NCBI GenBank assembly: GCA_000497125.2
Contig: CM035317.1
Coordinates: 708,001-772,000, forward strand
Direction: 5' to 3'
DNA from: Spironucleus salmonicida
Taxonomy: Eukaryota > Fornicata > Diplomonadida > Hexamitidae
DNA: 64,000 nt
How positions within the stretch are numbered: the first letter of the stretch is position 1; each line of letters begins with the position of its first letter. The notes under the pieces are model-generated. The model was not told the DNA's origin and did no database searches. It worked only from the letters and a program-made list of their open reading frames with translations. A program made the position numbers and the translations under genes. Below are positions 1 to 40,962 of this stretch, one piece after another.

Positions 1-45
1 ATCTTTGCAAGTGTTCTTGTCGGCAGAAGTACATTTGTTATCCAT
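1..45 (-). CDS. Cysteine-rich protein (CRP), N-terminal 15 codons only
   Basis: The reading frame starts at the ATG at 45-43 and runs off the left edge of the window. The 15 visible residues begin MDNKCTSADKNTC, the same start as the complete CRP gene at 29718-30722, which begins [13 protein letters not shown]. The first 17 nt of the coding region are identical in the two genes and then diverge, so this start marks the outer end of the large inverted repeat. A CxxC-rich body and a C-terminal membrane segment are expected outside the window but cannot be seen. Confidence 0.75.
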   Translation of the reverse strand, partial: MDNKCTSADKNTCKD

Positions 46-825
46 TTTAAAATAAATGGAATAGTTATTCTTATATGTATATTGGATATGAATAAGTAAT
101 ATCAGTTTTTGTTTCTTCTTATCTTTAAATAGTAAGTAGTATTACCTTCCATTAAACATATATTTCATGCGTACTTCTTTATAAATTCGTAATAACCTAT
201 TTTATTTATACCATTATCAATATAAATAAAAAACAATCTTATGTTTTATCTTCTATTTATTATTATTATTATTTTATGACTAACATGAATTTGAATGTAA
301 CTTTTATACTTTTTCAAATTAACAATGAATATATTTCGATAACGACATATATATACCTAAGAATCTTTAAATTATTATTTTAATATTATACACTAAATTG
401 CTTAAGTATATTTCTAAACATAAACAAAAATACGTAATTTTGATATTAACAAAATTAACAACTACTTGTCAAGATTGCTTTCGATCAAACCTAAGAAATA
501 AAATCTATAATTTTGCATGTTTCCTTATTCCATCTCAATTAAGCCTTAGCGTAGTATCGTATTTCAAAAACATCACAATATCATATTTGATAGAAGCTGC
601 AATTCATGCAATTTTTATCAATTCACATGTCTTATTCTTTTAAGCATAAAAGCTTTTTCAGTACTGCTTAGATGCTACCAAAGTAAAATTTAAAAATTCA
701 ATGTCGCTACTTATTACATCATCTCAATATAGGTTATTCATATTATCAAGCGTTTGATATATAAGCTCCTCTTCTGTCCATTCTCTTTTGAAATTTTTCA
801 TATCATATCTATATATTATTTAATA
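46..825. other. AT-rich intergenic DNA inside left arm
   Basis: This stretch is strongly AT-rich and has no convincing gene in either code. It should contain the upstream region of the minus-strand CRP that starts at 45. The mirror stretch 28937-29717 precedes the CRP gene at 29718, so both CRP genes have practically the same upstream DNA. Confidence 0.6.
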
Positions 826-1350
826 TCACTTCTTTCCTTTCTTACTCAAGTAATACGCGAGGCCGCCACTATAATAATTCCAGTTAACATGCCATGACAA
901 ATATCCGTCAGAGCCTTATATAAAAACGAAAAACCCTACTTTTTCAGCCCACCGCACAATCCGCCCAATTATCCTCTTTCAAGATATAGCCAAGAAGGCA
1001 AATTGCGCATTTATTGGTACCCCTACCTGTGAATTTTCCATCTATAGAAACATAATTACGCGTATTTATGCACCCAGTTCACGTATCATGACTATCTTCT
1101 CAACATGTACAACGAACATCTCCACATGCTCCCCTGCCTCTGAACTTTCCTAGCAAATGCCTAAATTCTAACCAACAGCATCTCGTAAACGCAGTTTATC
1201 ATTACTTTTTGCACTGCATGCTAATTGTCCACGCATTCATCTAAGCACTCATAATTTGTTCGCTAAATCAAATTCATGCATGTTCTATGTTAATATCTAC
1301 TTTCATTTTACAATGTGTTGCTCCTCAAAATTATCTTATTTTGCAGTACA
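826..1350 (-). pseudogene. Decayed CRP gene, C-terminal part (left arm)
   Basis: Reading the minus strand, fragments in shifting frames match the C-terminal third of intact CRPs. They include a KCAICLPGYILKED stretch, an interrupted hydrophobic Gly/Ile/Val segment, and a final GLAYYLSKKGKK followed by TGA (828-826). The intact genes ending at 30722 and 40541 have the same tail type ([10 protein letters not shown] and [10 protein letters not shown]). Internal TGA codons and frameshifts separate the pieces, so this is a relic. The mirror copy is at about 28400-28936. Confidence 0.7.
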
Positions 1351-1392
1351 CGAAAGTGGAAATAAATGGGTTTCCAGCAGATTTTGCCCTGC

Positions 1393-1480
1393 AAACCGCG
1401 CCCTCTTAGCAAGGTCTCCTGGGATCTGAAGCGCGAGCGAGCCCTTCGGAGGCTGCGCGCGTGCGGTTTTGGGTGCAAAT
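1393..1480 (+). pseudogene. Myb-like repeat fragment (left arm)
   Basis: A short GC-rich island in AT-rich DNA reads, in one frame, SWDLKRERALRRLRACGFG. This matches the third repeat of the Myb-like protein at 17715-18389 (AWDASRDAQLRALRAAGAG), sharing the W-D, the L-R-x-L-R-A core and the glycines. No flanking repeat can be read, so it looks like a detached fragment of a related gene. The mirror copy is at about 28281-28368. Confidence 0.4.
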
Positions 1481-2187
1481 TCGATACTGGAGATCGTGAA
1501 ATGTGCGAGGTAACAGCGGCAGAAATGGAAGTTTGTGCCTAGAAAACTGTTTGTATTTGAGTTGGTCTAGACGTCAGGAATTAGCTGTGGGGAAATGAAA
1601 GGCATGAGTAGGGCAGGGTAAGAAGTCTGCTTAGGATGCAGGAGATGCATGGTATTCGCATGATTGCAGTGATATAATAAGGTGTTGGGGTTGTTGCGTT
1701 TGTGTGGGATGTTAACTAGCATTATCATAGTCAGATATTAGGGGAATAGGGTAATAATGGGTTGATAGGGTGCGGTTAGTAAACATACTTTGTACTATAG
1801 TAATAATAATACAAAATTGGTATTATACAGTTTAATAGAAATTAGGTTTTAGGTAAAACAAATAGAATACATATTGGTGAGGTATGCAATTACTAATCCC
1901 AGGGAGTAAAATAGTTTTCTTAATGGCGTGGTTAAGCTATCTATAGACCTAGTATAGATAATACTAACCATCATGAGATAGTTAAGGTTGCTGCAGTAAT
2001 AGCGTGATGTATTTGAATTAACTACTTATGACCTTATCTCGTTTCTGCTCAGGTAGGATTATTTCATAAATATGATAATTTATTTAAATATCTGCACAGA
2101 TACAGCGTATGGTGTGGGTATAATGCTAGGCTCACTATAGTACGTATATACTTCAGCGACCTGATGCTATTCTCAAGCTATACTTAC

Positions 2188-2967
2188 ATGGCTGCTAACA
2201 AAATCATCGGAAACCGAAAATATGGTTGTTGCAGTGATGTTAATTCATATCAGCCCATGCTCCAGAAGGACAGCTTACGTATTTCCAGCAAAGGCTGCCC
2301 AGGTGGAGCTGGATGCCAGATGAATGACCAATGTGAGATATAAATTTACTAAATATTCAATTTAGTCAACTGGTAAGGGAGCCTGCACGTATACCCCGTA
2401 CCTGCTGAAGTTTCTAACCCGGCTACGATTTTACAGCAATGCGTGCAGACCTTGCCAGATTGCGCTATTTCGCTGGATACTTCCATAGCATGCGTCGAAT
2501 GCAAGCAGTGCTATATTTTTATTTTAACCGAATACCCTAAGTGCATTGCGAACTCTATCTGCTTCTCTGACTAGTTATTTTGTGAAGAAGGTGAAAAATA
2601 TTTTCGAATAAAAGAATGGTTCTGTGCGTCTCGCCTCCGGGGAAGCGAATAACGCAGAAGGGCATCCTGCTCCACTTACATGAAGGAATATATACTGTTG
2701 AATTTTACTGGTCAGCCTTGTCATGGAGACTGCGCCGACCGTGTAGGAGATGAATGCTACGAGTGCAACGAAGATTAGACGGCTAGCGACAATTTCTGCA
2801 TAGTATGTCCGGTAAATTTTGCAAATGCAGATAGGTACAATACTACAAGATATGGGATGCTAACCACTCTAGCAATCCGTATAGAAGCAGATTCAGCTTC
2901 TGCATGTCTTGTCACTACTGGGCTGCGATGGAGTGTTGCGAGCGAATTTGGTGCCCTAAATCCATGA
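2188..2967 (+). CDS. Cysteine-rich protein of 259 aa, no membrane segment (left arm)
   Basis: Under the TAR = Gln code a frame runs unbroken from the ATG at 2188 to TGA at 2965-2967. The standard code shows only short pieces because TAA and TAG occur in frame. The product has more than 20 cysteines, including KGCPGGAGCQ, ACVECKQC, QPCHGDCADR, ECYECNED and FCIVCP, which recall CRP modules. It has no clear signal peptide, no regular CxxC spacing at the C-end and no C-terminal membrane segment. It may be a divergent secreted CRP or a relic that has kept one long frame. The mirror copy at 26795-27574 is also open. Confidence 0.5.
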
Positions 2968-3122
2968 TAGCCTAGCAGATTATGCGGTGTGAAGACTACG
3001 GGATATACCTGTACGCCATCCATGAGGATATGTTACATGCAGAGGAGATTAAGATTTCAATAAGTATATAATTGGGATTTAAAAGTATGCCATGCATTCA
3101 TAAGCTGTTGTAAACATTATCA

Positions 3123-3892
3123 ATGATGCGCAAATGCAGAAATATGAGAAGAATACGCACTTTGGTATCGCCCAATGACAGGAACGAGTATGTGAATGAA
3201 AATAGCACAGATGTTAACCTTAGCCATCTAGGAAGGCAAGAGGCAGCGAGAACCTGGAGGCGTTTGCATTCAGTGACAGACCTTGAGCAGGGTGTGCTCT
3301 GGCAAAATATTTGCGAGTACTTTTTATCTGCAAGGTTTTCGAGAGACAGAACACACGAGAAGAATAATAGCAACCGGAATCTTTGCCCACCAGGCTCCTA
3401 GTACGAGAGTGTCTATGCTGGAACCTAGGACTACCAATTCATGTGATTTGCAACAAGTACGAGACTTTGAACGCGTAGTTCCTGTGCAACCCTGGCTTTA
3501 GCTAACTGTATGCAAAGAAGAGATAACAGTGCGAAGTTCAAGTAAGCCTTGAGTGCTTAGATTTTGGCGAACCGCACGATATGGCGAGTTGGTCCGCGCT
3601 ATGCACATAGACCGGAAAACCTGAGGAAATAGGTTAATCTGCTTATCTAGCGATGCAGACTTGGTACTGGTAGAGGGAGGCTGCGCGTGCACACGAGTTT
3701 GGAAGCGGCTCTATTACAGTATTGGAGGGGGTCTTGCCACCGCATGTTACTCAATCTTAACTGGGTTGCTTAAGCAACGAATGTCAAGAGAAATAATGGT
3801 TTCCTGGCACATGGCAAGACCCTAGAGTCAATAGGGAAAGGATTCCACTAAACGGCCCAGAGGATAAAATGTTGACCAGAAGTAAATTTTGA
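3123..3892 (+). pseudogene. Degenerate Cys-containing coding relic (left arm)
   Basis: Two overlapping frames are open in the Gln code: about 3123-3442, beginning MMRKCRNM, and about 3276-3892, which contains cysteine pairs such as ECLCW, FLCNPGF and LGCLSNEC. Neither has a recognisable start-to-end domain structure or a membrane segment. Base composition is close to that of nearby CRP relics. I infer an old CRP-like gene broken by a frameshift. The mirror copy lies at about 25870-26639. Confidence 0.35.
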
Positions 3893-4152
3893 ATGAAATT
3901 CATTGATTCTCTAATATGACGATTGCATGCAATATTCCAACAGTAGGTAATCGATTTCCCATCCATTTTGGTTTGCAACAGCTCCTGTCACTTATGGGGT
4001 ACTAGTAAGCTGATATTGTTTTTCGGAAAGGGAGTATATTGTATATTAACATACCAAATCAATATATCATACTAGGCAGAACCGCGATGAACACCGTGCT
4101 GACCCCATTGATACCATCGCAAAACCTCGCAGAATGCGGTCGCGGTACTTTG

Positions 4153-5120
4153 CTAGTTGCTTTTATTTTCTATCTTCTGCCATATTCTCAAAACTAGTGC
4201 CCAACCTGCGCTGGCAGTGCTGATGCCGGCCAGCCCGAGCGGGATCCCTAGAGTGACGCCTATGTGCATGTAGCCATCACTTTTCTCATAAGCACGTATT
4301 AAATATATTCTAGTCCAGCTGCACTGGAGCACTCCTTGCACGCCTGGCCAGCCAGCTGATCCCGTGTAGCGCACTTTACGTACTTTCGCAATCGTACGTA
4401 AAGCAGTTGCGGTATTTCTCGCTTCTGTACTCGGTCTGATAAACGGTGTGCCTGTACTCCGTAGTACACCGTCTCTGCTGTACTGTCCACCTGCTAGTTT
4501 GGAATACAAATGAGCCGGCAAGTGCCCATAGCCATTTATACCCTCATACACAGTGTTCACATGACCAGAATCACCTGTTTATAGCATCTCTGAAAACATC
4601 ACGGTGGGTTTCCCTTCAGTACCGTAAGCGAGACAGCATCTTTAGCCTTGGTACGTGCAGGGTTTCACTGCTTCCCCAATTCAGGGTTGGTAGCCAAATC
4701 CCTCTAAATAGAAGCAGCTGGACACGAAGTGCACCAAGTCTTGCCTCCTGGGCATGATTTGCAGGGTTATGCGAAATTCGTCAAAATCACCTTGCTAGCA
4801 TTCCTGGCATGACATGTTACCAGAAATTCCGCAGCCTAGAATGCAGTTGCCGCACGCAGCCCTGTCAAGTTAATAGGACACGCCGCAGTGCTTTGAGGGT
4901 CCGCAGGTGCACTCCTGGTAGCATGTACCCCGTCTTCGCATTCGAGGTAGGCACCACCGATCTCGTGATGGCCATCCTACCAGGGCCTGCGCGTACGCAC
5001 AATTCTAGTTGTATATGTTGCAGTATTACCATCGCCGAGGTAGTGATATTTCTTGCGACCTGAGCAGGTGATGCCGTCAGGTCACCTTTGTGTGACACTA
5101 AGCTTCTGCAAAGCATGTAG
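4153..5120 (-). pseudogene. Decayed CRP gene (left arm)
   Basis: On the minus strand, CRP-like pieces appear in changing frames: YQECTCGPSKHC, ATCGNCILGCGISGNMPCQEC, KSCPGGKTWCTSCP and KCATRDQLAGQACKECSS. They are followed by a hydrophobic Gly/Leu/Ala segment (GIPLGLAGISTASAGW) where CRPs carry their membrane helix. The order matches intact CRPs, but frameshifts and TGA codons break it. At the end, left and right arms differ by a TGG/TGA change. The mirror copy is at about 24641-25610. Confidence 0.6.
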
Positions 5121-5220
5121 GGAGGAGTGTAAAGCAGAGGTTCGGGACAGTTATCAGCGGGTATGAGCAGCCATCGACACAGTTTAGAGAGTGTATCTTT
5201 CAGTTCCTGGGGCTGCGGAG

Positions 5221-5631
5221 ATGGGAGATGGAAATTTTGGGAAGGGTGGTACGATCTGCTCTGGGTAAGAAGGGTGCCCAGCGCAAGTGGAAGTATGTAC
5301 AGGCGGTATGCAGTTTGTATTTGTAGGTCGGGATTGGTTTCTGCGTGAGCTTTACAGGCGGGATATTGGCGTTAGAATTTGTAATAGAAGGCTCTCATCA
5401 GGTCTATCGCGGTTTCTGCAAAATATATTTGCGGGCGGTAGCTGTACCAATCGAGAACTACATAAGGCGCTTAAAAATTATTATACACCAAGTCGCCTAT
5501 TCCGCGAGATTGGAGTTTTAGCTACTCTAGTCTATAATTCTGCTTGTATTAGTATCCTACAATATCCTTCCAAATCAAGTCTGGCAGTTTTATGCTCCTG
5601 GGATAATATATGGTCCGTAATGACACACTGA
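5221..5631 (+). CDS. Hypothetical protein, 136 aa (left arm)
   Basis: The frame is open from the ATG at 5221 to TGA at 5629-5631 with one in-frame TAA read as Gln. The N-terminal part contains TICSGQEGCPAQVEVCTGG, a Cys/Gly pattern like CRP starts. The rest is basic and mixed with no domain I recognise. It runs away from the decayed CRP at 4153-5120 and ends 140 bp before ProRS. The same length is kept in the other arm (24130-24540). It could be a real small gene or a relic. Confidence 0.35.
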
Positions 5632-5771
5632 CGATGCTAATTCTGCGTAGCAACGATCCTGCGAGATACGACGCTGCGTGCGCCACCCTATATAACTCCC
5701 TATGCGCAGTTTCACTTAGTACATATTATACGCTGATACCCGAGTAATCATTTCCGTTACCACTCCACAAA

Positions 5772-7247
5772 ATGTCTGGCAAGAAGGAAAAGACCCAGAA
5801 GCAGAACATTCGCTCAGGCCTCGAGACCTTCAACCTCCCCAAGTCCAACTTCTCGGACTGGTACGACGCCATCATGGACGCCGCCGAGATCGTCGACAGG
5901 CGCTACCCCGTGAAGGGCGCGCCCGTCCTGCGCCCCTACGGCTTCTTCATGCACAACGCCATCATGCGCAAGATCGAGGACGACTACGCCGAGCAGGGCA
6001 TCCAGCAGTCCCTCTTCCCCACGCTGATCCCCCGCTCCTTCCTGGCGAAGGAGGCCGAGCACATCAAGGGCTTTGAGTCGGAGTGCTACTGGTGCGACCG
6101 CGGCGGCCTCGACGCCCTGGAGGAGCCCCTGGCGCTGCGCCCCACCTCGGAGACCGCGATCTACTCCATGTTCGCCCTCTGGACGCGCTCGTTCCGGGAC
6201 CTGCCCCTCAAGATCCACCAGACCTGCTCCGTGTTCCGCTTCGAGACCAAGAACACCCGCCCCCTCATCAGGGTGCGCGAGATCCCCTGGAACGAGGCCC
6301 ATACCGCTCACGCCACCCGCGAGGAGGCGCTGGCGCAGATGAAGATCTACTGGGAGGTCTACCTGTCAGTCTTCGAGGCGATGGGCTTCTACGGCCAGAA
6401 GCTCGTCCGTGCCCCCTGGGACAAGTTCGCCGGGGCCGAGCACACTGAGGTGCTGGACGTCGTCATGCCCTGCGGCAAGGTGCTGCAGACGGCGGGCATC
6501 CACTTCCTCGGCCAGAAGTTCGCCAAGGTGTTCAACATCAAGTTCATCGACCAGAACAACACCCAGCAGTTCGCCGAGATGACTTGCGCCGGTATTTCCA
6601 CCAGGGCGCTTGCCTGCGCGCTCTCGGTCCACGGCGACCAGAAGGGCCTCATGCTCCCCAGCCTGATCGCCATGTACCAGGTCGTACTGGTGCCCTGCGG
6701 GAAGTACGGCGACGACCTGGTCCTCAAGATGAAGGAGATCCAGCAGACGCTCAAGGCGGCCGGCATCAGGTCCTTCTTCGACGACTCCAAGAAGTCCATG
6801 GGCGAGAAGATCTTCCACTGGGAGATGAAGGGCGTCCCTCTCCGCATCGAGCTCGGCCCCCGCGACCTAGAGAGCGGCGACTTCGTGGCCATCTGCAGGG
6901 ACACCGGCAAGGACGGCAAGCAGGTCTTCAAGGTCCAGGACATCGCGGCGGTCGCGAGAGACCAGCTGGCCCAATACGACAGCAGGCTCAGGGCGGCAGG
7001 CAGGGCCTTCGCGACCGAGAGGTGCGCCACCTGCAGGACGCTCGCGGAGGCCCAGGCCGCCGTCCCCAGCGGCTTCGCCAGGGTGCCCCTCGCGGAGCTG
7101 GAGCAGTCCCTCGAGGAGGCCTTCAAGAAGCTCGTCGTGGGCGCCGAGATCCGCGGCTACGACCCCGAGGCCGCCTGCGAGGGCGAGCTGTGCGTCGTGA
7201 CCGGCGCGCCGGCGAAGTTCTGGTGCTTCGTGGCGAGAGCGTACTGA
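5772..7247 (+). CDS. ProRS: Prolyl-tRNA synthetase (left arm copy)
   Basis: The 491-aa product charges tRNA-Pro with proline in the cytosol. It is the archaeal/eukaryotic-type class II synthetase without the bacterial editing insertion. Visible features are a tyrosine- and arginine-rich start of the catalytic domain (RPYGFFMHNAIMRKIEDDY, residues ~55-73), the motif-2 region FRFETKNTRPLIRVREIPWNEAH (~155-178), the motif-3 region STRALACALSVHGDQKG (~276-292), and the anticodon-binding and C-terminal zinc-type domains, ending in the expected aromatic FVARAY. The length is about normal for a ProRS without an N-terminal extension. The start fits because the ATG follows an A-rich ACAAA. GC content is far above the surroundings and there are no TAR codons. 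The 68-aa gene on the other strand ends 10 bp away. The protein is identical to that of the right arm. Confidence 0.97.
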   Translation: MSGKKEKTQKQNIRSGLETFNLPKSNFSDWYDAIMDAAEIVDRRYPVKGAPVLRPYGFFMHNAIMRKIEDDYAEQGIQQSLFPTLIPRSFLAKEAEHIKGFESECYWCDRGGLDALEEPLALRPTSETAIYSMFALWTRSFRDLPLKIHQTCSVFRFETKNTRPLIRVREIPWNEAHTAHATREEALAQMKIYWEVYLSVFEAMGFYGQKLVRAPWDKFAGAEHTEVLDVVMPCGKVLQTAGIHFLGQKFAKVFNIKFIDQNNTQQFAEMTCAGISTRALACALSVHGDQKGLMLPSLIAMYQVVLVPCGKYGDDLVLKMKEIQQTLKAAGIRSFFDDSKKSMGEKIFHWEMKGVPLRIELGPRDLESGDFVAICRDTGKDGKQVFKVQDIAAVARDQLAQYDSRLRAAGRAFATERCATCRTLAEAQAAVPSGFARVPLAELEQSLEEAFKKLVVGAEIRGYDPEAACEGELCVVTGAPAKFWCFVARAY

Positions 7248-7257
7248 GATTGTCATT

Positions 7258-7464
7258 TCACTCGTCTAGGTAGTCGAAGTTGAGCATCTGGCCCTGCTGG
7301 TAGTACGCCGAGAACGCGTTCAGCTCCTCGAACTTCTGGTGCTCCCTCTCCAGGTCGCGCGTCGAGTTCGCGAGCAGGAAGTCGGTGTCGTGGGCGGCCG
7401 GCAGGCTGGCAAAGCTGGTCTGCGTTTTGCGCGCGATCTCAAATTTCTGCTGCAGAACGTTCAT
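7258..7464 (-). CDS. Hypothetical protein, 68 aa (left arm)
   Basis: This small GC-rich ORF starts at the ATG at 7464-7462 (MNVLQQKFEIARKTQ) and ends in TGA at 7260-7258 within AGTGAAAT. An in-frame upstream ATG at 7527 would add 21 proline-rich residues, but the MNVL start fits a compact helical protein better. The sequence is charged and probably helical, with a C-terminal FSAYYQQGQMLNFDYLDE. I do not recognise the family. It is convergent with ProRS (10 bp between stops) and lies 203 bp downstream of the 126-aa gene on the same strand. It is identical in the right arm. Confidence 0.6.
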   Translation of the reverse strand: MNVLQQKFEIARKTQTSFASLPAAHDTDFLLANSTRDLEREHQKFEELNAFSAYYQQGQMLNFDYLDE

Positions 7465-7667
7465 TTGGAGTGCGGGTGGAACGGTAGGGCAAGGTATTGG
7501 GCGGTGCAGATGCGGACGCGGTCCCACCGGTGCATGGGCAGCGCTACTGCGGGCGGCAGGGGCAGCTTGGGTGCGCGCCTGCAGCTGGGATAGCGTTCCA
7601 ATCCTCCTGGCCCAACTCGCCAGCTAAATGGCTTGGCCCATCGTCGCGCGCAGTGAGACAGCACAGA

Positions 7668-8048
7668 TCACGAAAAGTCAATCCGGCCGACGTACTCGTC
7701 GTAGTCGATGCCGAAGTGCTGCAGCACCTCGCGGTTGGGCAGCTGCTTGCCGGCGTGGGTCTGGGGCTGCGTGCTGCCCTCGAATCCCGGAAACTTGACC
7801 CGCAGCGTCAGGTCGGTGAAGTCCATGAAGTAGCGGCCGGAGGAGGTGAGGACGCCCGTCTCGTAGCCCTGCAGGACGCCCTCGGGGCAGAGGACGAAGG
7901 AGTGAAACGCGAAGTTCTTGACGATCTTGAAGCCGCTCTGGCCGTGCTCGTTCAGCTCGAGGGAGAAGAAGCAGCCGCCGTAGTAGTAGACGGAGGGCTC
8001 CTCTACGGACCGCGCGACTGCGATCGATGCGTAGTCTGGAAGGGACAT
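7668..8048 (-). CDS. Hypothetical protein, 126 aa (left arm)
   Basis: This GC-rich ORF starts at MSLPDYASIAVARS (8048) after an A-rich ACCGAAA leader and ends in TGA at 7670-7668. The product is globular, with many aromatic residues and alternating hydrophobic strands (YYYGGCFFSLEL, FKIVKNFAFHSFVL, RYFMDFTDLTLRVKFPGF), and ends in DEYVGRIDFS. There is no signal or membrane segment. The even codon composition and the exact conservation in the right arm argue that it is real. I could not assign a family. An alternative start 21 bases upstream (8069) exists only in this arm because of a 1-base indel. Confidence 0.65.
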   Translation of the reverse strand: MSLPDYASIAVARSVEEPSVYYYGGCFFSLELNEHGQSGFKIVKNFAFHSFVLCPEGVLQGYETGVLTSSGRYFMDFTDLTLRVKFPGFEGSTQPQTHAGKQLPNREVLQHFGIDYDEYVGRIDFS

Positions 8049-8269
8049 TTTCGGTGCGTATGCTGACAATTATACAGAACTCGAGATAGTATTCCGCCAC
8101 TATACAAAGCAATGCGCGCCAGCCGATGGGCGCTCTGGGATGCGGTGGGCGTGCGAGAGGACCCGTGCTGCACCAGCTGGCGGGAGCCTTCAGCCGCGGA
8201 GGTGCCGCTCGCCTGAGGAGCTAGAGGCGAGGAGCACGCGCAGGCGCTCGGCAGTGTGTCCGGCTGCTA

Positions 8270-9083
8270 GGGGGTGCCTGCGTACTACTATAATGGTGCG
8301 GTGCCGTCCTGCCTGCCCTACTGCATGTCGGCAGCAACGGCACCGCTGGTGCGGACCAGAGAAGGCGCCCGCTTTTTCTCGATATGGCTAGTATGGTATT
8401 GGTGTACGCAAACTAAAAAATGCAAAGTGGAGTGGGAATCGTAAACATTGTTTGCATATCTATTTGGTGCAAATGCAGTAACTAATAGCCAGCAATGCGC
8501 AACTCCGCCTCCTGTAATTACTGTCTGCTTGGTTTATTGTACCTCGCGAGGCCTGCCGCAAGAGCAAAGATACCGGAATATATATTAGAGTCGGCTCCAT
8601 AAGATGACGATGCTGTCCATCGCGGCGCAGCACACCCAGAACCTGGGGAGGGCCACGAGTCCACTGCGGCCAACACGAGGCATAACGTTAACATCGCCCA
8701 CTGGACCGGTGTGCGGGTGACGGTGCCAGTTGACATCATCAACTTCGGGATATCGGCTTCCATACAGTGATAGTGGGGAGCGTAACTTCTGCTCACCACG
8801 CGGACACCCGACTTCACGCATAACTTCAACTTCTTCTACTCGGACTTCCGCAGCCCGCGGTTCTGCTACCAGGTCCGCCCAGTAGGCAGCCTAGTTCAGC
8901 GCGATCCGGCAGAACGATATCTCCCTCCCGATCCTGCTGAGCAATAGTGAGAGCAAGGTTCGGATGCTCTCCTAGCAGGTGGGGCGAAGGGCTCCCGGAG
9001 GGTCCAGATTGCAGCGCTCTCCGACACGATCTTGCGCGTTGTGATCTTCTCCATGGTCGGCGAGGCGTAGACGCGCATGTGAG
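8270..9083 (+). pseudogene. GC-rich decayed relative of the 518-aa membrane protein (left arm)
   Basis: Pieces in several frames line up in order with the intact protein at 9625-11181. VPAYYYNGAV corresponds to IPDCYSGATV; NVNIAHWTGVRVTV to NISNLAFWTGVRVAY; FNFFYSDFRSPRFCYQV to FQFSFKNPRFCFEV; and SDTILRVVIFSMV to IDSVWRMVIFVKV near the C-end. Frameshifts, TGA codons and large deletions separate them. The relic is GC-rich, whereas most of the intact gene is AT-rich. It lies about 540 bp upstream of the intact gene in the same direction, so it is probably an old tandem copy. The 5' limit is tentative. Confidence 0.65.
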
Positions 9084-12943: not shown

Positions 12944-12962
12944 TATATTCTTGTTTACCCTG

Positions 12963-21491: not shown

Positions 21492-21710
21492 AGCAGCCGG
21501 ACACACTGCCGAGCGCCTGCGCGTGCTCCTCGCCTCTAGCTCCTCAGGCGAGCGGCACCTCCGCGGCTGAAGGCTCCCGCCAGCTGGTGCAGCACGGGTC
21601 CTCTCGCACGCCCACCGCATCCCAGAGCACCCATCGGCTGGCGCGCATTGCTTTGTATAGTGGCGGGATACTATCTAGAGTTCTGTATAATTGTCGCATA
21701 CGCACCGAAA

Positions 21711-22091
21711 ATGTCCCTTCCAGACTACGCATCGATCGCAGTCGCGCGGTCCGTAGAGGAGCCCTCCGTCTACTACTACGGCGGCTGCTTCTTCTCCCTC
21801 GAGCTGAACGAGCACGGCCAGAGCGGCTTCAAGATCGTCAAGAACTTCGCGTTTCACTCCTTCGTCCTCTGCCCCGAGGGCGTCCTGCAGGGCTACGAGA
21901 CGGGCGTCCTCACCTCCTCCGGCCGCTACTTCATGGACTTCACCGACCTGACGCTGCGGGTCAAGTTTCCGGGATTCGAGGGCAGCACGCAGCCCCAGAC
22001 CCACGCCGGCAAGCAGCTGCCCAACCGCGAGGTGCTGCAGCACTTCGGCATCGACTACGACGAGTACGTCGGCCGGATTGACTTTTCGTGA
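21711..22091 (+). CDS. Hypothetical protein, 126 aa (right arm)
   Basis: This is the mirror copy of the gene at 7668-8048 and gives the same protein. The start is MSLPDY at 21711, and TGA lies at 22089-22091 in TCGTGATC. A one-base indel just upstream changes which extra ATG is in frame (21648 here), which supports the common MSLPDY start. Function unknown. Confidence 0.65.
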   Translation: MSLPDYASIAVARSVEEPSVYYYGGCFFSLELNEHGQSGFKIVKNFAFHSFVLCPEGVLQGYETGVLTSSGRYFMDFTDLTLRVKFPGFEGSTQPQTHAGKQLPNREVLQHFGIDYDEYVGRIDFS

Positions 22092-22296
22092 TCTGTGCTG
22101 TCTCACTGCGCGCGACGATGGGCCAAGCCATTTAGCTGGCGAGTTGGGCCAGGAGGATTGGAACGCTATCCCAGCTGCAGGCGCGCGCACCCAAGCTGCC
22201 CCTGCCGCCCGCAGTAGCGCTGCCCAGACACCGGTGGGACCGCGTCCGCATCTGCACCGCCCAATACCTTGCCCTACCGTTCCACCCGCACTCCAA

Positions 22297-22503
22297 ATGA
22301 ACGTTCTGCAGCAGAAATTCGAGATCGCGCGCAAAACGCAGACCAGCTTCGCCAGCCTGCCGGCCGCCCACGACACCGACTTCCTGCTCGCGAACTCGAC
22401 GCGCGACCTGGAGAGGGAGCACCAGAAGTTCGAGGAGCTGAACGCGTTCTCGGCGTACTACCAGCAGGGCCAGATGCTCAACTTCGACTACCTAGACGAG
22501 TGA
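22297..22503 (+). CDS. Hypothetical protein, 68 aa (right arm)
   Basis: Mirror of 7258-7464 with an identical protein. A frame upstream of MNVL is open in this arm back to 22078, whereas in the left arm a small indel closes it sooner. This asymmetry favours the internal MNVL start. It is convergent with ProRS with 10 bp between stops. Confidence 0.6.
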   Translation: MNVLQQKFEIARKTQTSFASLPAAHDTDFLLANSTRDLEREHQKFEELNAFSAYYQQGQMLNFDYLDE

Positions 22504-22513
22504 AATGACAATC

Positions 22514-23989
22514 TCAGTACGCTCTCGCCACGAAGCACCAGAACTTCGCCGGCGCGCCGGTCACGACGCACAGCTCGCCCTCGCAGGCGGCCTCGGGGTC
22601 GTAGCCGCGGATCTCGGCGCCCACGACGAGCTTCTTGAAGGCCTCCTCGAGGGACTGCTCCAGCTCCGCGAGGGGCACCCTGGCGAAGCCGCTGGGGACG
22701 GCGGCCTGGGCCTCCGCGAGCGTCCTGCAGGTGGCGCACCTCTCGGTCGCGAAGGCCCTGCCTGCCGCCCTGAGCCTGCTGTCGTATTGGGCCAGCTGGT
22801 CTCTCGCGACCGCCGCGATGTCCTGGACCTTGAAGACCTGCTTGCCGTCCTTGCCGGTGTCCCTGCAGATGGCCACGAAGTCGCCGCTCTCTAGGTCGCG
22901 GGGGCCGAGCTCGATGCGGAGAGGGACGCCCTTCATCTCCCAGTGGAAGATCTTCTCGCCCATGGACTTCTTGGAGTCGTCGAAGAAGGACCTGATGCCG
23001 GCCGCCTTGAGCGTCTGCTGGATCTCCTTCATCTTGAGGACCAGGTCGTCGCCGTACTTCCCGCAGGGCACCAGTACGACCTGGTACATGGCGATCAGGC
23101 TGGGGAGCATGAGGCCCTTCTGGTCGCCGTGGACCGAGAGTGCGCAGGCAAGCGCCCTGGTGGAAATACCGGCGCAAGTCATCTCGGCGAACTGCTGGGT
23201 GTTGTTCTGGTCGATGAACTTGATGTTGAACACCTTGGCGAACTTCTGGCCGAGGAAGTGGATGCCCGCCGTCTGCAGCACCTTGCCGCAGGGCATGACG
23301 ACGTCCAGCACCTCAGTGTGCTCGGCCCCGGCGAACTTGTCCCAGGGGGCACGGACGAGCTTCTGGCCGTAGAAGCCCATCGCCTCGAAGACTGACAGGT
23401 AGACCTCCCAGTAGATCTTCATCTGCGCCAGCGCCTCCTCGCGGGTGGCGTGAGCGGTATGGGCCTCGTTCCAGGGGATCTCGCGCACCCTGATGAGGGG
23501 GCGGGTGTTCTTGGTCTCGAAGCGGAACACGGAGCAGGTCTGGTGGATCTTGAGGGGCAGGTCCCGGAACGAGCGCGTCCAGAGGGCGAACATGGAGTAG
23601 ATCGCGGTCTCCGAGGTGGGGCGCAGCGCCAGGGGCTCCTCCAGGGCGTCGAGGCCGCCGCGGTCGCACCAGTAGCACTCCGACTCAAAGCCCTTGATGT
23701 GCTCGGCCTCCTTCGCCAGGAAGGAGCGGGGGATCAGCGTGGGGAAGAGGGACTGCTGGATGCCCTGCTCGGCGTAGTCGTCCTCGATCTTGCGCATGAT
23801 GGCGTTGTGCATGAAGAAGCCGTAGGGGCGCAGGACGGGCGCGCCCTTCACGGGGTAGCGCCTGTCGACGATCTCGGCGGCGTCCATGATGGCGTCGTAC
23901 CAGTCCGAGAAGTTGGACTTGGGGAGGTTGAAGGTCTCGAGGCCTGAGCGAATGTTCTGCTTCTGGGTCTTTTCCTTCTTGCCAGACAT
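22514..23989 (-). CDS. ProRS: Prolyl-tRNA synthetase (right arm copy)
   Basis: This is the second full ProRS gene, 491 aa, with the same protein as 5772-7247. At least one silent difference (near 23141) shows that the two copies are distinct in the assembly. Catalytic motifs 2 and 3 and the C-terminal domains are intact, so both copies should be functional. ProRS is rarely needed in two copies, so the second is probably carried along by the large duplication. Confidence 0.96.
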   Translation of the reverse strand: MSGKKEKTQKQNIRSGLETFNLPKSNFSDWYDAIMDAAEIVDRRYPVKGAPVLRPYGFFMHNAIMRKIEDDYAEQGIQQSLFPTLIPRSFLAKEAEHIKGFESECYWCDRGGLDALEEPLALRPTSETAIYSMFALWTRSFRDLPLKIHQTCSVFRFETKNTRPLIRVREIPWNEAHTAHATREEALAQMKIYWEVYLSVFEAMGFYGQKLVRAPWDKFAGAEHTEVLDVVMPCGKVLQTAGIHFLGQKFAKVFNIKFIDQNNTQQFAEMTCAGISTRALACALSVHGDQKGLMLPSLIAMYQVVLVPCGKYGDDLVLKMKEIQQTLKAAGIRSFFDDSKKSMGEKIFHWEMKGVPLRIELGPRDLESGDFVAICRDTGKDGKQVFKVQDIAAVARDQLAQYDSRLRAAGRAFATERCATCRTLAEAQAAVPSGFARVPLAELEQSLEEAFKKLVVGAEIRGYDPEAACEGELCVVTGAPAKFWCFVARAY

Positions 23990-24129
23990 TTTGTGGAGTG
24001 GTAACGGGAATGATTACTCGGGTATCAGCGTATAATATGTACTAAGTAAAACTGCGGATAGGGAGTTATATAGGGTGGCGCACGCAGCGTCGTATCTCGC
24101 AGGATCGTGGCTACGCAGAATTAGCATCG

Positions 24130-24540
24130 TCAGTGTGTCATTACGGACCATATATTATCCCAGGAGCATAAAACTGCCAGACTTGATTTGGAAGGATATT
24201 GTAGGATACTAATACAAGCAGAATTATAGACTAGAGTAGCTAAAACTCCAATCTCGCGGAATAGGCGACTTGGTGTATAATAATTTTTAAGCGCCTTATG
24301 TAGTTCTCGATTGGTACAGCTACCGCCCGCAAATATATTTTGCAGAAACCGCGATAGACCTGATGAGAGCCTTCTATTACAAATTCTAACGCCAATATCC
24401 CGCCTGTAAAGCTCACGCAGAAACCAATCCCGACCTACAAATGCAAACTGCATACCGCCTGTACATACTTCCACTTGCGCTGGGCACCCTTCTTACCCAG
24501 AGCAGATCGTACCACCCTTCCCAAAATTTCCATCTCCCAT
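24130..24540 (-). CDS. Hypothetical protein, 136 aa (right arm)
   Basis: Mirror of 5221-5631 with the same length, start (24540) and TGA, and at least one amino-acid difference (Val to Ala near residue 32). No family is recognised. Confidence 0.35.
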
Positions 24541-24640
24541 CTCCGCAGCCCCAGGAACTGAAAGATACACTCTCTAAACTGTGCCGATGGCTGCTCATAC
24601 CCGCTGATAACTGTCCCGAACCTCTGCTTTACACTCCTCC

Positions 24641-25610
24641 CTACATGCTTTGCAGAAGCTTAGTGTCACACAAAGGTGACCTGACGGCATCACCTGCTCA
24701 GGTCGCAAGAAATATCACTACCTCGGCGATGGTAATACTGCAACATATACAACTAGAATTGTGCGTACGCGCAGGCCCTGGTAGGATGGCCATCACGAGA
24801 TCGGTGGTGCCTACCTCGAATGCGAAGACGGGGTACATGCTACCAGGAGTGCACCTGCGGACCCTCAAAGCACTGCGGTGTGTCCTATTACCTTGACAGG
24901 GCTACGTGCGGCAACTGCATTCTAGGCTGCGGAATTTCTGGTAACATGCCATGCCAGGAATGCTAGCAAGGTGATTTTGACGAATTTCGCATAACCCTAC
25001 AAATCATGCCCAGGAGGCAAGACTTGGTGCACTTCGTGTCCAGCTGCTTCTATTTACAGGGATTTGGCTACCAACCCTGAATTGGGGAAGCAGTGAAACC
25101 CTGCACGTACCAAGGCTAAAGATGCTGTCTCGCTTACGGTACTGAAGGCAAACCCACCGTGATGTTTTCAGAGATGCTACAAACAGGTGATTCTGGTCAT
25201 GTGAACACTGTGTATGAGGGTATAAATGGCTATGGGCACTTGCCGGCTCATTTGTATTCCAAACTAGCAGGTGGACAGTACAGCAGAGACGGTGTACTAC
25301 GGAGTACAGGCACACCGTTTATCAGACCGAGTACAGAAGCGAGAAATACCGCAACTGCTTTACGTACGATTGCGAAAGTACGTAAAGTGCGCTACACGGG
25401 ATCAGCTGGCTGGCCAGGCGTGCAAGGAGTGCTCCAGTGCAGCTGGACTAGAATATATTTAATACGTGCTTATGAGAAAAGTGATGGCTACATGCACATA
25501 GGAGTCACTCTAGGGATCCCGCTCGGGCTGGCCGGCATCAGCACTGCCAGCGCAGGTTGGGCACTAGTTTTGAGAATATGACAGAAGATAGAAAATAAAA
25601 GCAACTAGCA
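24641..25610 (+). pseudogene. Decayed CRP gene (right arm)
   Basis: Mirror of 4153-5120. The Cys-rich pieces (CTCGPSKHC, CGNCILGC, CPGGKTWCTSCP) and the C-terminal hydrophobic stretch are present in shifted frames. A TGA at about 25579 replaces a TGG of the left arm. Confidence 0.6.
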
Positions 25611-25869
25611 AAGTACCGCGACCGCATTCTGCGAGGTTTTGCGGTGAGTATCAATGGAGTCAGCACGGTGTTCATCGCGGTTCTGCCTAGTATGATATAT
25701 TGATTTGGTATGTTAATATACAATATACTCCCTTTCCGAAAAACAATATCAGCTTACTAGTACCCCATAAGTGACAGGAGCTGTTGCAAACCAAAATGGA
25801 TGGGAAATCGATTACCTACTGTTGGAATATTGCATGCAATCGTCATATTAGAGAATCAATGAATTTCAT

Positions 25870-26639
25870 TCAAAATTTACTTCTGGTCAACATTTTATCC
25901 TCTGGGCCGTTTAGTGGAATCCTTTCCCTATTGACTCTAGGGTCTTGCCATGTGCCAGGAAACCATTATTTCTCTTGACATTCGTTGCTTAAGCAACCCA
26001 GTTAAGATTGAGTAACATGCGGTGGCAAGACCCCCTCCAATACTGTAATAGAGCCGCTTCCCAACTCGTGTGCACGCGCAGCCTCCCTCTACCAGTACCA
26101 AGTCTGCATCGCTAGATAAGCAGATTAACCTATTTCCTCAGGTTTTCCGGTCTATGTGCATAGCGCGGACCAACTCGCCATATCGTGCGGTTCGCCAAAA
26201 TCTAAGCACTCAAGGCTTACTTGAACTTCGCACTGTTATCTCTTCTTTGCATACAGTTAGCTAAAGCCAGGGTTGCACAGGAACTACGCGTTCAAAGTCT
26301 CGTACTTGTTGCAAATCACATGAATTGGTAGTCCTAGGTTCCAGCATAGACACTCTCGTACTAGGAGCCTGGTGGGCAAAGATTCCGGTTGCTATTATTC
26401 CTCTCGTGTGTTCTGTCTCTCGAAAACCTTGCAGATAAAAAGTACTCGCAAATATTTTGCCAGAGCACACCCTGCTCAAGGTCTGTCACTGAATGCAAAC
26501 GCCTCCAGGTTCTCGCTGCCTCTTGCCTTCCTAGATGGCTAAGGTTAACATCTGTGCTATTTTCATTCACATACTCGTTCCTGTCATTGGGCCATACCGA
26601 AGTGCGTATTCTTCTCATATTTCTGCATTTGCGCATCAT
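25870..26639 (-). pseudogene. Degenerate Cys-containing coding relic (right arm)
   Basis: Mirror of 3123-3892. Small substitutions separate the copies, for example a Leu-Val to Ser-Val change near the start. No domain is recognised. Confidence 0.35.
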
Positions 26640-26794
26640 TGATAATGTTTACAACAGCTTATGAATGCATGGCATACTTTTAAATCCCAATTATATACTT
26701 ATTGAAATCTTAATCTCCTCTGCATGTAACATATCCTCATGGATGGCGTACAGGTATATCCCGTAGTCTTCACACCGCATAATCTGCTAGGCTA

Positions 26795-27574
26795 TCATGG
26801 ATTTAGGGCACCAAATTCGCTCGCAACACTCCATCGCAGCCCAGTAGTGACAAGACATGCAGAAGCTGAATCTGCTTCTATACGGATTGCTAGAGTGGTT
26901 AGCATCCCATATCTTGTAGTATTGTACCTATCTGCATTTGCAAAATTTACCGGACATACTATGCAGAAATTGTCGCTAGCCGTCTAATCTTCGTTGCACT
27001 CGTAGCATTCATCTCCTACACGGTCGGCGCAGTCTCCATGACAAGGCTGACCAGTAAAATTCAACAGTATATATTCCTTCATGTAAGTGGAGCAGGATGC
27101 CCTTCTGCGTTATTCGCTTCCCCGGAGGCGAGACGCACAGTACCATTCTTTTATTCGAAAATATTTTTCATCTTTTTCACAAAATAACTAGTCAGAGAAG
27201 CAGATAGAGTTCGCAATGCACTTAGGGTATTCGGTTAAAATAAAAATATAGCACTGCTTGCATTCGACGCATGCTATGGAAGTATCCAGCTAAATAGCGC
27301 AATCTGGCAAGGTCTGCCCGCATTGCTGTCAAATCGTAGCCGGGTTAGCAACTTCAGCAGGTACGGGGTATACGTGCAGGCTCCCTTACCAGTTGACTAA
27401 ATTGAATATTTAGTAAATTTATATCTCACATTGGTCATTCATCTGGCATCCAGCTCCACCTGGGCAGCCTTTGCTGGAAATACGTAAGCTGTCCTTCTGG
27501 AGCATGGGCTGATATGAATTAACATAACTGCAACAACCATATTTTCGGTTTCCGATGATTTTGTTAGCAGCCAT
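26795..27574 (-). CDS. Cysteine-rich protein of 259 aa (right arm)
   Basis: Mirror of 2188-2967. The frame from 27574 to TGA at 26797-26795 is open over the same 260 codons despite several replacements relative to the left arm (Asp to Tyr near the start, Val to Gly, Ser to a TAG-coded Gln, Phe to Tyr). Keeping the frame while accumulating replacements suggests either a weakly constrained gene or chance. Confidence 0.45.
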
Positions 27575-28280
27575 GTAAGTATAGCTTGAGAATAGCATCA
27601 GGTCGCTGAAGTATATACGTACTATAGTGAGCCTAGCATTATACCCACACCATACGCTGTATCTGTGCAGATATTTAAATAAATTATCATATTTATGAAA
27701 TAATCCTACCTGAGCAGAAACGAGATAAGGCCATAAGTAGTTGATTCAAATACATCACGCTATTACTGCAGCAACCCTAACTATCTCATGATGACTAGTA
27801 TTATCTATACTAGGTCTATAGATAGCTTAACGACGCCATTAAGAAAACTATTTTACTCCCTGGGATTAGTAATTGCATACCTCACCAATATGTATTCTAT
27901 TTATTTTACCGAAAACCTAATTTCTATTAAACTGTATAATACCAATTTTGTATTATTATTACTATAGTACAAAGTATGTTTACTAACCGCACCCTATCAA
28001 CCCATTATTACCCTATTCCCCTAATATCTGACTATGATAATGCTAGTTAACATCCCACACAAACGCAACAACCCCAACACCTTATTATATCACTGCAATC
28101 ATGCGAATACCATGCATCTCCTGCATCCTAAGCAGACTTCTTACCCTGCCCTACTCATGCCTTTCATTTCCCCACAGCTAATTCCTGACGTCTAGACCAA
28201 CTCAAATACAAACAGTTTTCTAGGCACAAACTTCCATTTCTGCCGCTGTTACCTCGCACATTTCACGATCTCCAGTATCG

Positions 28281-28368
28281 AATTTGCACCCAAAACCGCA
28301 CGCGCGCAGCCTCCGAAGGGCTCGCTCGCGCTTCAGATCCCAGGAGACCTTGCTAAGAGGGCGCGGTT
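28281..28368 (-). pseudogene. Myb-like repeat fragment (right arm)
   Basis: Mirror of 1393-1480: a GC-rich island that reads like the third repeat of the Myb-like protein at 17715-18389. Confidence 0.4.
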
Positions 28369-28399
28369 TGCAGGGCAAAATCTGCTGGAAACCCATTTA

Positions 28400-28936
28400 T
28401 TTCCACTTTCGTGTACTGCAAAATAAGATAATTTTGAGGAGCAACACATTGTAAAATGAAAGTAGATATTAACATAGAGCATGCATGAATTTGATTTAGC
28501 GAACAAATTATGAGTGCTTAGATGAATGCGTGGACAATTAGCATGCAGTGCAAAAAGTAATGATAAACTGCGTTTACGAGATGCTGTTGGTTAGAATTTA
28601 GGCATTTGCTAGGAAAGTTCAGAGGCAGGGGAGCATGTGGAGATGTTCGTTGTACATGTTGAGAAGATAGTCATGATACGTGAACTGGGTGCATAAATAC
28701 GAGTAATTATGTTTCTATAGATGGAAAATTCACAGGTAGGGGTACCAATAAATGCGCAATTTGCCTTCCTGGGTATATCTTGAAAGAGGATAATTGGGCG
28801 GATTGTGCGGTGGGCTGAAAAAGTAGGGTTTTTCGTTTTTATATAATGCTCTGACGGATATTTGTCATGGCATATTAACTGGAATTATTATAGTGGCGGC
28901 CTCGCGTATTACTTGAGTAAGAAAGGAAAGAAGTGA
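28400..28936 (+). pseudogene. Decayed CRP gene, C-terminal part (right arm)
   Basis: Mirror of 826-1350. It reads ACGDVRCTC, then NKCAICLPGYILKED, then a broken hydrophobic segment, and GLAYYLSKKGKK with TGA at 28934-28936. Three reading frames are needed, so it is a relic of a gene like the one at 29718-30722. Confidence 0.7.
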
Positions 28937-29717
28937 TATTAAATAATATATAGATATGATATGAAAAATTTCAAAAGAGAATGGACAGAAGAGGAGCTTA
29001 TATATAAAACGCTTGATAATATGAATAACCTATATTGAGATGATGTAATAAGTAGCGACATTGAATTTTTAAATTTTACTTTGGTAGCATTTAAGCAGTA
29101 CTGAAAAAGCTTTTCTGCTTAAAAGAGTAAGACATGTGAATTGATAAAAATTGCATGAATTGCAGCTTCTATCAAATATGATATTTTGATGTTTTTGAAA
29201 TACGATAGTGCGTTAGGGATTATTGGTAGCGAATAGCGAAACATGCAAAATTATAGATTTTATTTCTTATGTTTTGATAGAGGTCAATCTTGATAAGGAA
29301 TTTTTAATTTTCTCACCATCAAAATTAAGTATTTTTGTTTATGTTTAGAAATATACTTAAGCAATTTAGTGTATAATATTAAAATAATAATTTAAAGATT
29401 CTTAGGTATATATATGTCGTTATCGAAATATATTCATTGTTAATTTGAAAAAGTATAAAAGTTACATTCAAATTCATGTTAGTCATAAAATAATAATAAT
29501 AATAAATAGAAGATAAAACATAAGATTGTTTTTTTATTTATATTGATAATGGTATAAATAAAATAGGTTATTACGAATTTATAAAGAAGTACGCATGAAA
29601 TATATGTTTAATGGAAGGTAATACTACTTACTATTTAAAGATAAGAAGAAACAAAAACTGATATTACTTATTCATATCCAATATACATATAAGAATAACT
29701 ATTCCATTTATTTTAAA

Positions 29718-30722
29718 ATGGATAACAAATGTACCGATTCTGATACGACCACTTGTAACACTGGGTTCTTCTGTCCTAATAACGCTGAGGTGGGTGGTAC
29801 TACGTGTACGGCATGTGATAATACGTGTGCAACCTGCTCAGCAGCTGCTGCAAGTGACTGCCTGACCTGCGCCGACGGTAAGTTTTTCAGCTCTAATTCC
29901 TGCACAGCCTGCGATGATAAATGCACGAAATGTGTTAATAATTCTACTGAGTGTAGCGAGTGCAAATCAGGACATATGCTTTCTGGAACCACCTGCGAGG
30001 CCTGCCCTGACAATTGTGAAAATTGTGCTGGAGACAAAGCAGTTTGTAAGATCTGCAAAAACAATTTCTTCTAAAAAGAGGCCAAATGTGAGGCGTGTGC
30101 TGGAAATATGACGTAGCAGTGCGAGTGTGGTGTTGCACTCAATTGCGCCACCTGTACTTCTGGTGATTCGTCTAAATGTGAAACCTGCATTACTGGCTAT
30201 AAGAAAAACGGTGAGGTATGCGATACCTGTGAAGATGGCTATATGATGGTCAATTCAGTTTGCACAAAATGCAACGATAATTGTGAGACGTGTTCCAAGG
30301 GCGTTGACTTGTGCGATACGTGTATGACTGGTTACCAGATGACGGTCAACTAAACATGTTAGGCTGATTGCAGCCCAGTTTTATCAGATGGAAAAGCCTG
30401 CGTTAGTGCCGCTGCTATAGCCTGTGGAGACGAAGCCCAGATAACGGAATGCAAGTGTGCAGATGTTAAAAATTGTCTCACCTGTAATGATAGTAATAGT
30501 AAGTGCGCCTCCTGCCTCCCTGGATACAAGCTAGAGGCTGATAAATGTGAGACTTGCGAAGATGGGGCTGAACAGACTGGAGCCTTTTGCTTCGTACCGA
30601 GAAAGGAATCTGGGAACCTCTCAGGCGGTGCTGCGGCGGGAATTGTGATTGCTGTGCTGGTGGTGGTAGGGGCCGTCGGTGGCGGTCTGGCGTATTACTT
30701 CATCAAGAGAGCCAAGAAGTGA
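29718..30722 (+). CDS. Cysteine-rich membrane protein (CRP), 334 aa
   Basis: This is a complete CRP with four in-frame TAR codons and TGA at 30720-30722 (AAGTGAAAAG). The extracellular part is a chain of CxxC modules of the furin/VSP type. It begins [20 protein letters not shown] and contains repeated C-x2-C with Gly-aromatic spacing. One helix ([26 protein letters not shown], ~300-325) is followed by the short basic tail IKRAKK. The layout matches variant surface proteins of diplomonads. No hydrophobic signal peptide precedes the first cysteine, and no upstream in-frame ATG is available before a TGA. The upstream DNA and first codons lie inside the inverted repeat. A surface or antigenic role is inferred. 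Confidence 0.9.
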
Positions 30723-40813: not shown

Positions 40814-40849
40814 GCCCCAGCACCGAATTTTAGTTAATTAGCATCATCG

Positions 40850-40891: not shown

Positions 40892-40962
40892 CAAAAAATA
40901 GGAAAGAATGTAACCCAAAAAAAATACATTATGTAATACATATTTTTTTAACATATACAAAA

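Follow-up and report, generated by a model that had tools for sequence, protein, structure and literature searches.

A palindrome of about 87 kb, with arms of about 38-40 kb, was found on contig CM035317.1 (here C2; other contigs are numbered likewise) of the diplomonad Spironucleus salmonicida. It is probably an old, large inverted duplication which has been rewritten piecemeal by recombination: the core would have been homogenised from arm to arm, and the surface-protein genes, mostly kept apart, would have taken part in ectopic exchange. The window, that is, the whole stretch of DNA that was analysed, covered 64,000 nucleotides (C2:708001-772000). Bare positions are given in window numbering and negative ones lie to the left of the window; C2:678001-708000 was joined to it to follow the left arm outward. 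In this numbering the palindrome ran from about -27.7 kb to 59.4 kb (C2:680,308-767,396). The genome searched comprised 14.47 Mb in 37 contigs, and the published S. salmonicida assembly was given as 14.7 Mb in 42 scaffolds, based on 161x PacBio reads and optical maps (PMC9509377).

Core arms and extent of the palindrome

Two inverted arms around a spacer were nearly identical: of 9,703 alignment columns, 88 were mismatches and 7 were gaps (99.02% identity), and chance cannot account for a match of this length. A preliminary description of the window had given the outer limits 29 and 29734 of the arms (29-9726 and 20034-29734) exactly to the base, and its 10.3 kb for the spacer agreed with the 10,307 bp measured. 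The inner ends of the match were also where it had put them, at codon 34/35 of two 518-amino-acid (518-aa) paralogs with 60% aa identity, and so were the outer ends, in two CRP genes (left and right CRP1, 76.6% aa identity) at codon 6/7. The gene at each end of the core had a counterpart on the other arm, with order and orientation conserved. When a divergent patch at 434-576 was taken out, 62 mismatches remained and core identity was 99.30%. As in a large palindrome, the arms were long and inverted and enclosed a spacer that lacked an inverted partner; they were not more than 99% alike throughout, the core being 99.0% and the outer blocks 77-94% alike. The core piece 5001-9726 was found at two places in the genome, which were the two arms, and the piece 601-5000 at 12, of which the ten beyond the arms matched its first 542 bases only, at 74-84%.

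The palindrome limits at 29 and 29734 that had first been proposed did not hold. Inverted homology continued, roughly colinear, beyond both CRP1 genes to about -27.7 kb and 59.4 kb, and it had been missed because its left part lies outside the window. The innermost block paired -2014 to 10786 with 31779 to 18971 (12.8 kb, 94.4%, core included), the outer blocks are listed in Table 1, and a global alignment of the arms held 37,396 aligned columns. The ends first proposed are the edges of divergence islands, and the arms first proposed are the best-preserved inner part of the palindrome. Since colinear inverted homology lies beyond both of those limits, the pair predates the time at which the core reached 99% identity.

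That the arms were produced by an assembly artefact, through folding back or through a head-to-head join of two haplotypes, is very unlikely. The arms differ by 0.7-23%, compared with a reported heterozygosity of 0.09% (PMC9509377), the flanks and the spacer differ, and the published reads (N50 14.6 kb) are longer than one core arm (PMC9509377). An artefact would gain some room from the published read-depth check, which was confined to the largest two duplicated regions (PMC9509377).

Differences within the core were unevenly distributed (variance/mean 2.24, p 0.0006), and the longest identical run was 1,082 bp (p 0.03). This clustering favours several events. The main rival of conversion is a single long copying event, since there is no third copy of the core to record its history. 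In that case a double crossover or break-induced replication would have copied the core just once, recently and as one long tract. Conversion would not have gone on since, and the 0.7% difference of the core would be later mutation plus one imported patch. Core edges that are abrupt on both sides, the lack of a third copy and the presence of only 62 mismatches outside the patch agree with this; the clustered differences do not, nor does the blockwise sharing of sites along the outer arms (below), which shows repeated exchange, and a single copying is unlikely.

Divergence islands over the surface-protein genes

Identity between the arms was 95.6% outside five surface-protein coding regions (25,712 columns) and 78.1% inside them (6,643 columns). 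The mask of these five regions was chosen by the analysts, and 7 of its 3,236 rotations along the arms reached such a contrast, with right-arm 30850-35962 and 52300-55350 (replaced or unalignable) set aside. With both stretches included, the values were 75.8% and 91.9% (23 of 3,740 rotations, or 30 of 3,740 with a CRP-like stretch at 39714-40574 masked too). When the CRP-like stretch was added to the mask of the first test, identity was 79.9% inside and 95.7% outside (6 of 3,236); without the core the values were 79.6% and 93.6% (8 of 2,266). The core without its patch was 99.3% alike, compared with 93.6% for the outer non-surface columns.

CRP1 is the cleanest of the islands. Identity was 30/30 at 40-69, 22/30 at 10-39, and 27-30/30 from -950 outward to -1250; from codon 7 on, the left and right genes shared 83% of their nucleotides. 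The nucleotide identity of the 518-aa genes dropped to 63% from codon 35.

Synonymous divergence (dS) between left and right copies was 0.003 for the prolyl-tRNA synthetase of the core and 0.038-0.096 for five outer frames, while it reached 0.18 for CRP3, 0.43 for CRP1, 0.47 for CRP4 and 0.52 for CRP2, and was beyond correction for the bodies of the 518-aa genes. The comparison passed over any codon that had a gap or a stop and used only part of CRP2 and of CRP3. As for the outer frames, all five are predictions, open in the right arm, with stops in the left interval for the 559-, 709- and 377-aa frames. Surface genes of parasites are often under diversifying selection, and selection on the proteins alone might have separated them here. 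CRP dS was raised as well, therefore the islands cannot be put down to amino-acid selection alone; with CRP dS of 0.18-0.52 against 0.04-0.10 in neighbouring frames, and a ratio of nonsynonymous to synonymous divergence of 0.32-0.55 in the four CRP pairs, this explanation is extremely improbable. The divergence islands have an older or a different history than their surroundings.

If the duplication were young, its surface genes could have been replaced later from other loci, and the islands would be imported and not old. A 5-kb tract like that at C2:800 kb and patches in CRP1, both described below, are imports or exports of such a kind. Against a young duplication, the two 518-aa proteins are 57-60% alike and have no closer relative in the genome (others at most 39%), and the outer arms differ by 6% outside the surface genes. 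It is considered rather unlikely.

Exchange among loci of C2

Part of the outer arm had a third copy, in direct orientation, at C2:628001-646307, starting at the edge of the DNA examined, with 94.4% identity to C2:688686-707002. Sites at which two of the three outer-arm copies agreed against one formed 265 runs, compared with 514 +/- 13 after shuffling (0 of 2000 shuffles); 807 of 2,220 informative sites were used, taken from 500-base bins that held over 350 columns, less than 15% of them variable. With sites thinned to 20 and 50 bp, the counts were 0 and 1 of 2000 shuffles. In one block, at C2:700141-700757, 64 consecutive sites united the two arms of the palindrome against the third copy. 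Smaller matches in both orientations were also numerous in C2:628001-812000, and C2 around the palindrome is a patchwork of segmental copies. In the genome comparison, which ran up to window position 60000, the best 37 of 72 candidates were scored for 40041-60000 and the best 38 of 49 for 29735-40040, and the counts for these two parts are lower bounds. The left outer arm, evident from aligning the arms directly, was not among the matches listed for 40041-60000.

Over CRP1 and its 5' flank (-1000 to 640), the types of the left arm, the right arm and the C2:661-kb copy alternated: 282 informative sites formed 87 runs, compared with 186 +/- 8 after shuffling (0 of 2000, or 5 of 2000 when thinned to 20 bp). 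At -400 to -301 the left arm agreed with the 661-kb copy at 98 of 100 bases, the right arm with that copy at 77 and the two arms with each other at 76; at -300 to -201 it was the right arm that agreed with the 661-kb copy at 98, and the left arm at 80. The patch in the left core arm was also nearer to the C2:661- and 609-kb copies than to the right arm. At 400-499 the 609-kb copy was the nearest to the left arm (95/100), and at 500-599 the left arm matched the 661-kb copy at 99/100 and the right arm at 87/99.

A much longer tract, 30850-35962 in the right arm, resembled DNA near C2:800 kb (Table 1). Opposite this tract the left arm was mostly unrelated DNA, and between about 35.4 and 31.8 kb it had no match. 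Between its start and about 35,950, right CRP2 could be aligned to both the third copy and the left arm, at 66-89% per 150 bases, and beyond that point it switched to the C2:800-kb type; the gene is chimeric. The part of CRP2 that was kept in the arm comparison was 78.3% alike. Recombination or gene conversion involving surface-protein genes, as the preliminary description had proposed, is supported by the CRP1 patchwork (87 against 186 runs) and by the CRP2 chimera with its 96.9% tract. The proposal that the repeat swaps promoters and 5' coding ends is not supported and has little content here, because both arms carry practically identical sequence at these places; in the 518-aa start region (9550-9639), 90 of 90 bases were identical. 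Judging from the sequence, an inversion of the spacer would leave both 518-aa genes with unchanged upstream sequence.

The 5' flank of CRP1 (46-430), which is AT-rich, was shared with loci at C2:609 and 661 kb, its bins at 100-399 being mostly 95-100% alike among the four loci. The four belong to two separate inverted pairs, and they differ from one another in coding sequence and farther upstream. The flank is a candidate anchor for exchange or a candidate shared promoter.

Further inverted pairs were observed at C2:609-613 / 658-661 kb (94.7% over 2.7 kb), C2:825-828 / 916-920 kb (91.1% over 3.5 kb) and C1:1014.8-1017.0 / 1031.3-1033.5 kb (98.2% over 1.9 kb), the values referring to the parts compared, and at C6:1045.8-1050.7 / 1060.3-1065.1 kb from coordinates only. 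Long inverted duplications may be common in the S. salmonicida genome. At about C2:944-994 kb, direct matches repeated every 30.48 kb, with 3.2 kb of them 100% identical, which looks like a recent tandem duplication. C18:1-2543 was identical to C1:997.9-1000.5 kb over 2,543 bp and is possibly an unplaced duplicate.

Proposed history of the palindrome

An inverted duplication on C2, with arms of about 38-40 kb and 87 kb in total, would have come first. The innermost 9.7 kb of each arm would later have been made near-identical, most likely through arm-to-arm gene conversion, over a tract that would span from the start of CRP1 to the start of the 518-aa gene, both reading outward, and enclose the synthetase. 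The bodies of the surface genes would mostly have escaped homogenisation, either since heterology stops conversion tracts or since cells with homogenised genes were lost, and the CRP genes would have received short patches, and once a 5-kb tract, common to other CRP loci of C2. We infer that the likeness of the core came from conversion and not from one recent copying event, and the direction of sequence transfers between loci was inferred as well.

Several observations weigh against this history. The palindrome is described here from the assembled contig sequence. The core has no third copy, and conversion there is read from the contrast between core and outer arms only; the clustering of core differences could partly come from constraint. 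With the three-copy sites thinned to 100 bp, the block signal was weaker (51 of 2000 shuffles). In the outermost 4 kb, non-coding bins were mostly 80-86% alike too, and the drop in identity at CRP2 began about 100 bases ahead of the start codon. The CRP-like stretch at 39714-40574 was 93.7% alike between the arms over 861 columns, with the left one about 1 kb longer.

GC content

GC was 0.49 in core bins and 0.30 in outer non-surface bins, the latter with a mean identity of 95.6%. The GC-rich core recalls mammalian palindromes, in which GC-biased conversion is described (PMC3723533, PMC8981503), and duplicated regions of the S. salmonicida genome are reported to have a GC of 44.7%, compared with 30.7% elsewhere (PMC9509377). 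The rank correlation between identity and GC was 0.47 over 47 bins, -0.37 over the 29 outer bins and 0.33 (p 0.18) over the 18 core bins. GC-biased conversion is not supported as a general cause of the GC-rich core in view of the negative correlation in the outer arms and of 9200-9599, which was 100% identical between the arms at a GC of about 0.2.

Genes in the palindrome

The features are collected in Table 1. Many long frames needed code 6, in which TAA and TAG stand for glutamine.

Table 1. Positions of the arms, genes and tracts of the C2 palindrome in window numbering
Feature	Position	Strand	Remarks
Left core arm	29..9726	+	9,698 bp, 99.02% to 20034-29734 inverted
Right core arm	20034..29734	-	9,701 bp, inverted partner of 29-9726
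Spacer	9727..20033	.	10,307 bp; ends are the bodies of two 518-aa paralogs; middle without inverted partner
Right outer arm, first block	35405..40291	-	partner -8587..-3702; 89.2% over 4,899 columns
Right outer arm, second block	40047..52284	-	partner -21828..-9578; 94.0% over 12,293 columns
Right outer arm, outermost (three blocks)	55365..59396	-	partner -27692..-24021; 77-80%
Left CRP1	-959..45 (window part 1..45)	-	334 aa, open frame without internal stop, to about C2:707042
Right CRP1	29718..30722	+	334 aa, VSP-like; Pfam VSP 50.2 bits
Right CRP2	34043..37039	-	998 aa, chimeric, switch near 35,950; Pfam VSP 64.9 bits
Right CRP3	50939..52789	-	616 aa; Pfam VSP 46.9 bits; 89.0% over 1,351 kept columns
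Right CRP4	55409..57424	-	671 aa; VSP 26.1 bits, under cut-off; cysteine 15%; 77.8%
CRP-like stretch	39714..40574	+	tblastn matches of CRP1 and CRP4; not a divergence island
Patch in left core arm	434..576	.	144 columns to right arm: 26 mismatches, 2 gap columns
Tract shared with C2:800 kb	30850..35962	-	96.9% to C2:799983-805093 over 5,116 columns
Prolyl-tRNA synthetase, left	5772..7247	+	491 aa from ATG at 5772; frame open from 5592
Prolyl-tRNA synthetase, right	22514..23989	-	one synonymous difference from left copy
Left 518-aa gene	9625..11181	+	codons 1-34 in core, rest in spacer
Right 518-aa gene	18579..20135	-	paralog of left 518-aa gene

The CRP proteins had the traits of the cysteine-rich membrane proteins (CRMPs) of S. 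salmonicida: they were VSP-like and cysteine-rich (about 13-16% cysteine), with a putative transmembrane segment near the C-terminus. CRP1-3 were over the Pfam VSP cut-off of 31.4 bits and CRP4 under it, and a hydrophobic segment near the C-terminus was found in CRP1 and CRP2, the two scanned. This hydropathy was a simple scan and not a topology predictor. CRP1 ended in KRAKK in both arms, a candidate counterpart of the pentapeptide motif that follows the transmembrane segment of CRMP1. No CRP tblastn match at E 1e-4 was found in 46-9624, so the core at 1-5 kb is not taken as a decayed CRP gene.

The prolyl-tRNA synthetase was identified by Pfam tRNA-synt_2b (139.3 bits) and by its best PDB match, 3ial (543 bits), which we take to be the Giardia enzyme. 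A protein search of the assembly gave two candidate places, both of them the two arms, and none other. The genome is AT-rich, and the third-position GC of the two copies was 0.96 and 0.95; frames at three other places over the family cut-off (C8, C7 and C4) had 0.59, 0.39 and 0.25. The gene lay within a block of 60-70% GC reaching to about 9 kb. The other core frames at 1-9 kb gave no Pfam match in 13 pieces, and a 126-aa frame (7668-8048, minus strand) matched only itself in the database, with PDB entries at E of about 0.6.

In the hydropathy scan, the 518-aa proteins had a single hydrophobic segment at the C-terminus, with a short basic tail. To call them membrane proteins, as was first done, is fair on the ground of this segment, and their place at the surface is presumed. 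One relative was SS50377_26458 of S. salmonicida, and the sole database relative not encoded in the window was a hypothetical protein of that species. Searched against Pfam at 0.01 they matched no known family, a looser limit bringing only matches under the cut-off (best E 0.032), and no PDB match was found up to E 1. They were also considered as HAP2-like, and PF10699 gave 0 matches on the whole genome. An AlphaFold2 model of the 518-aa protein with 4 sequences had a mean pLDDT (predicted local distance difference test) of 41.1.

In the middle of the spacer, a frame at 13869-15896 (plus strand) matched the 518-aa proteins at its C-terminus (E 0.015 in a single comparison) and shared with them a layout with cysteines first and membrane segment last; it may be a distant relative. 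A GC-rich block (59%) at 17397-18389 adjoined the right 518-aa gene only and held a frame with sub-threshold Pfam matches only. The spacer piece 12423-13119 was a dispersed repeat, with five other relatives at C2:50-162 kb (87-91%).

In the outer arm, a 709-aa frame (44267-46396, plus strand) was a relative of family B DNA polymerases (DNA_pol_B_2; PF03175 relatives), and its relatives are named DNA polymerase in S. salmonicida records. The left-arm interval opposite it held stops. Related places, among the matches listed, were C2:900426-905923, C5:963657-968228, C6:1048578-1050668 and C6:1060285-1062375. The outer arms probably hold a mobile or virus-like element, as suggested by this frame.

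Comparison with known systems

In Giardia lamblia WB, 14 of 19 inverted vsp pairs had identical coding regions, the genes lying 2-4 kb apart, and near-identity ended 139-729 bp outside the coding regions (PMC2996952). The palindrome is like these pairs in having inverted cysteine-rich surface genes in a diplomonad, abrupt points of divergence and evidence of recombination between genes, and unlike them in that here the likeness lies in the flanks, with differences in most of the surface coding regions, and the arms reach about 38-40 kb (PMC2996952). Identical coding regions were not found (CRP1 83.4%, kept part of CRP2 78.3%, CRP3 89.0%, CRP4 77.8%), and the CRP1 start codons, at 45 (minus strand) and 29718 (plus strand), were 29.7 kb apart and not 2-4 kb. 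Mammalian sex-chromosome palindromes share the large inverted arms, the spacer, the core above 99% and the GC-rich core, whereas their arms are above 99% over the whole length and here only the core is (PMC3723533, PMC8981503); unlike in these palindromes, GC did not track identity in the outer arms. The patchwork surface-protein genes are also like mosaic VSG formation in Trypanosoma brucei (PMC13233330), the patchwork here being known from sequence data only.

The S. salmonicida genome paper described CRMP arrays on chromosome 2 and duplicated GC-rich regions, and suggested gene conversion on the basis of gene density, heterozygosity and GC patterns (PMC9509377). As far as can be told the genome is the same, and in the text searched neither a palindrome nor a single tract is reported (PMC9509377). 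No description of this palindrome was found in the literature searched, including the 2014 and 2022 S. salmonicida genome papers. Each ingredient is already known, namely inverted surface-gene pairs, arm-to-arm conversion and conversion in S. salmonicida, and the palindrome is an unusual and informative case of known genome dynamics. It offers a base-level view, outside Giardia among diplomonads, of homogenised flanks beside diversified surface genes with abrupt edges near the coding ends. With its defined arms, one near-identical tract elsewhere, a chimeric gene and a two-copy housekeeping yardstick, the locus makes the conversion idea testable.

A further, rather doubtful, idea is that non-coding anchors beside the CRP genes might permit the exchange of coding cassettes, and that arm-to-arm conversion might keep the essential synthetase free of differences. 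If this were true, inverted duplication would be a general way to diversify surface genes and repair housekeeping genes at once, a generality at which the further inverted pairs on C1, C2 and C6 hint.

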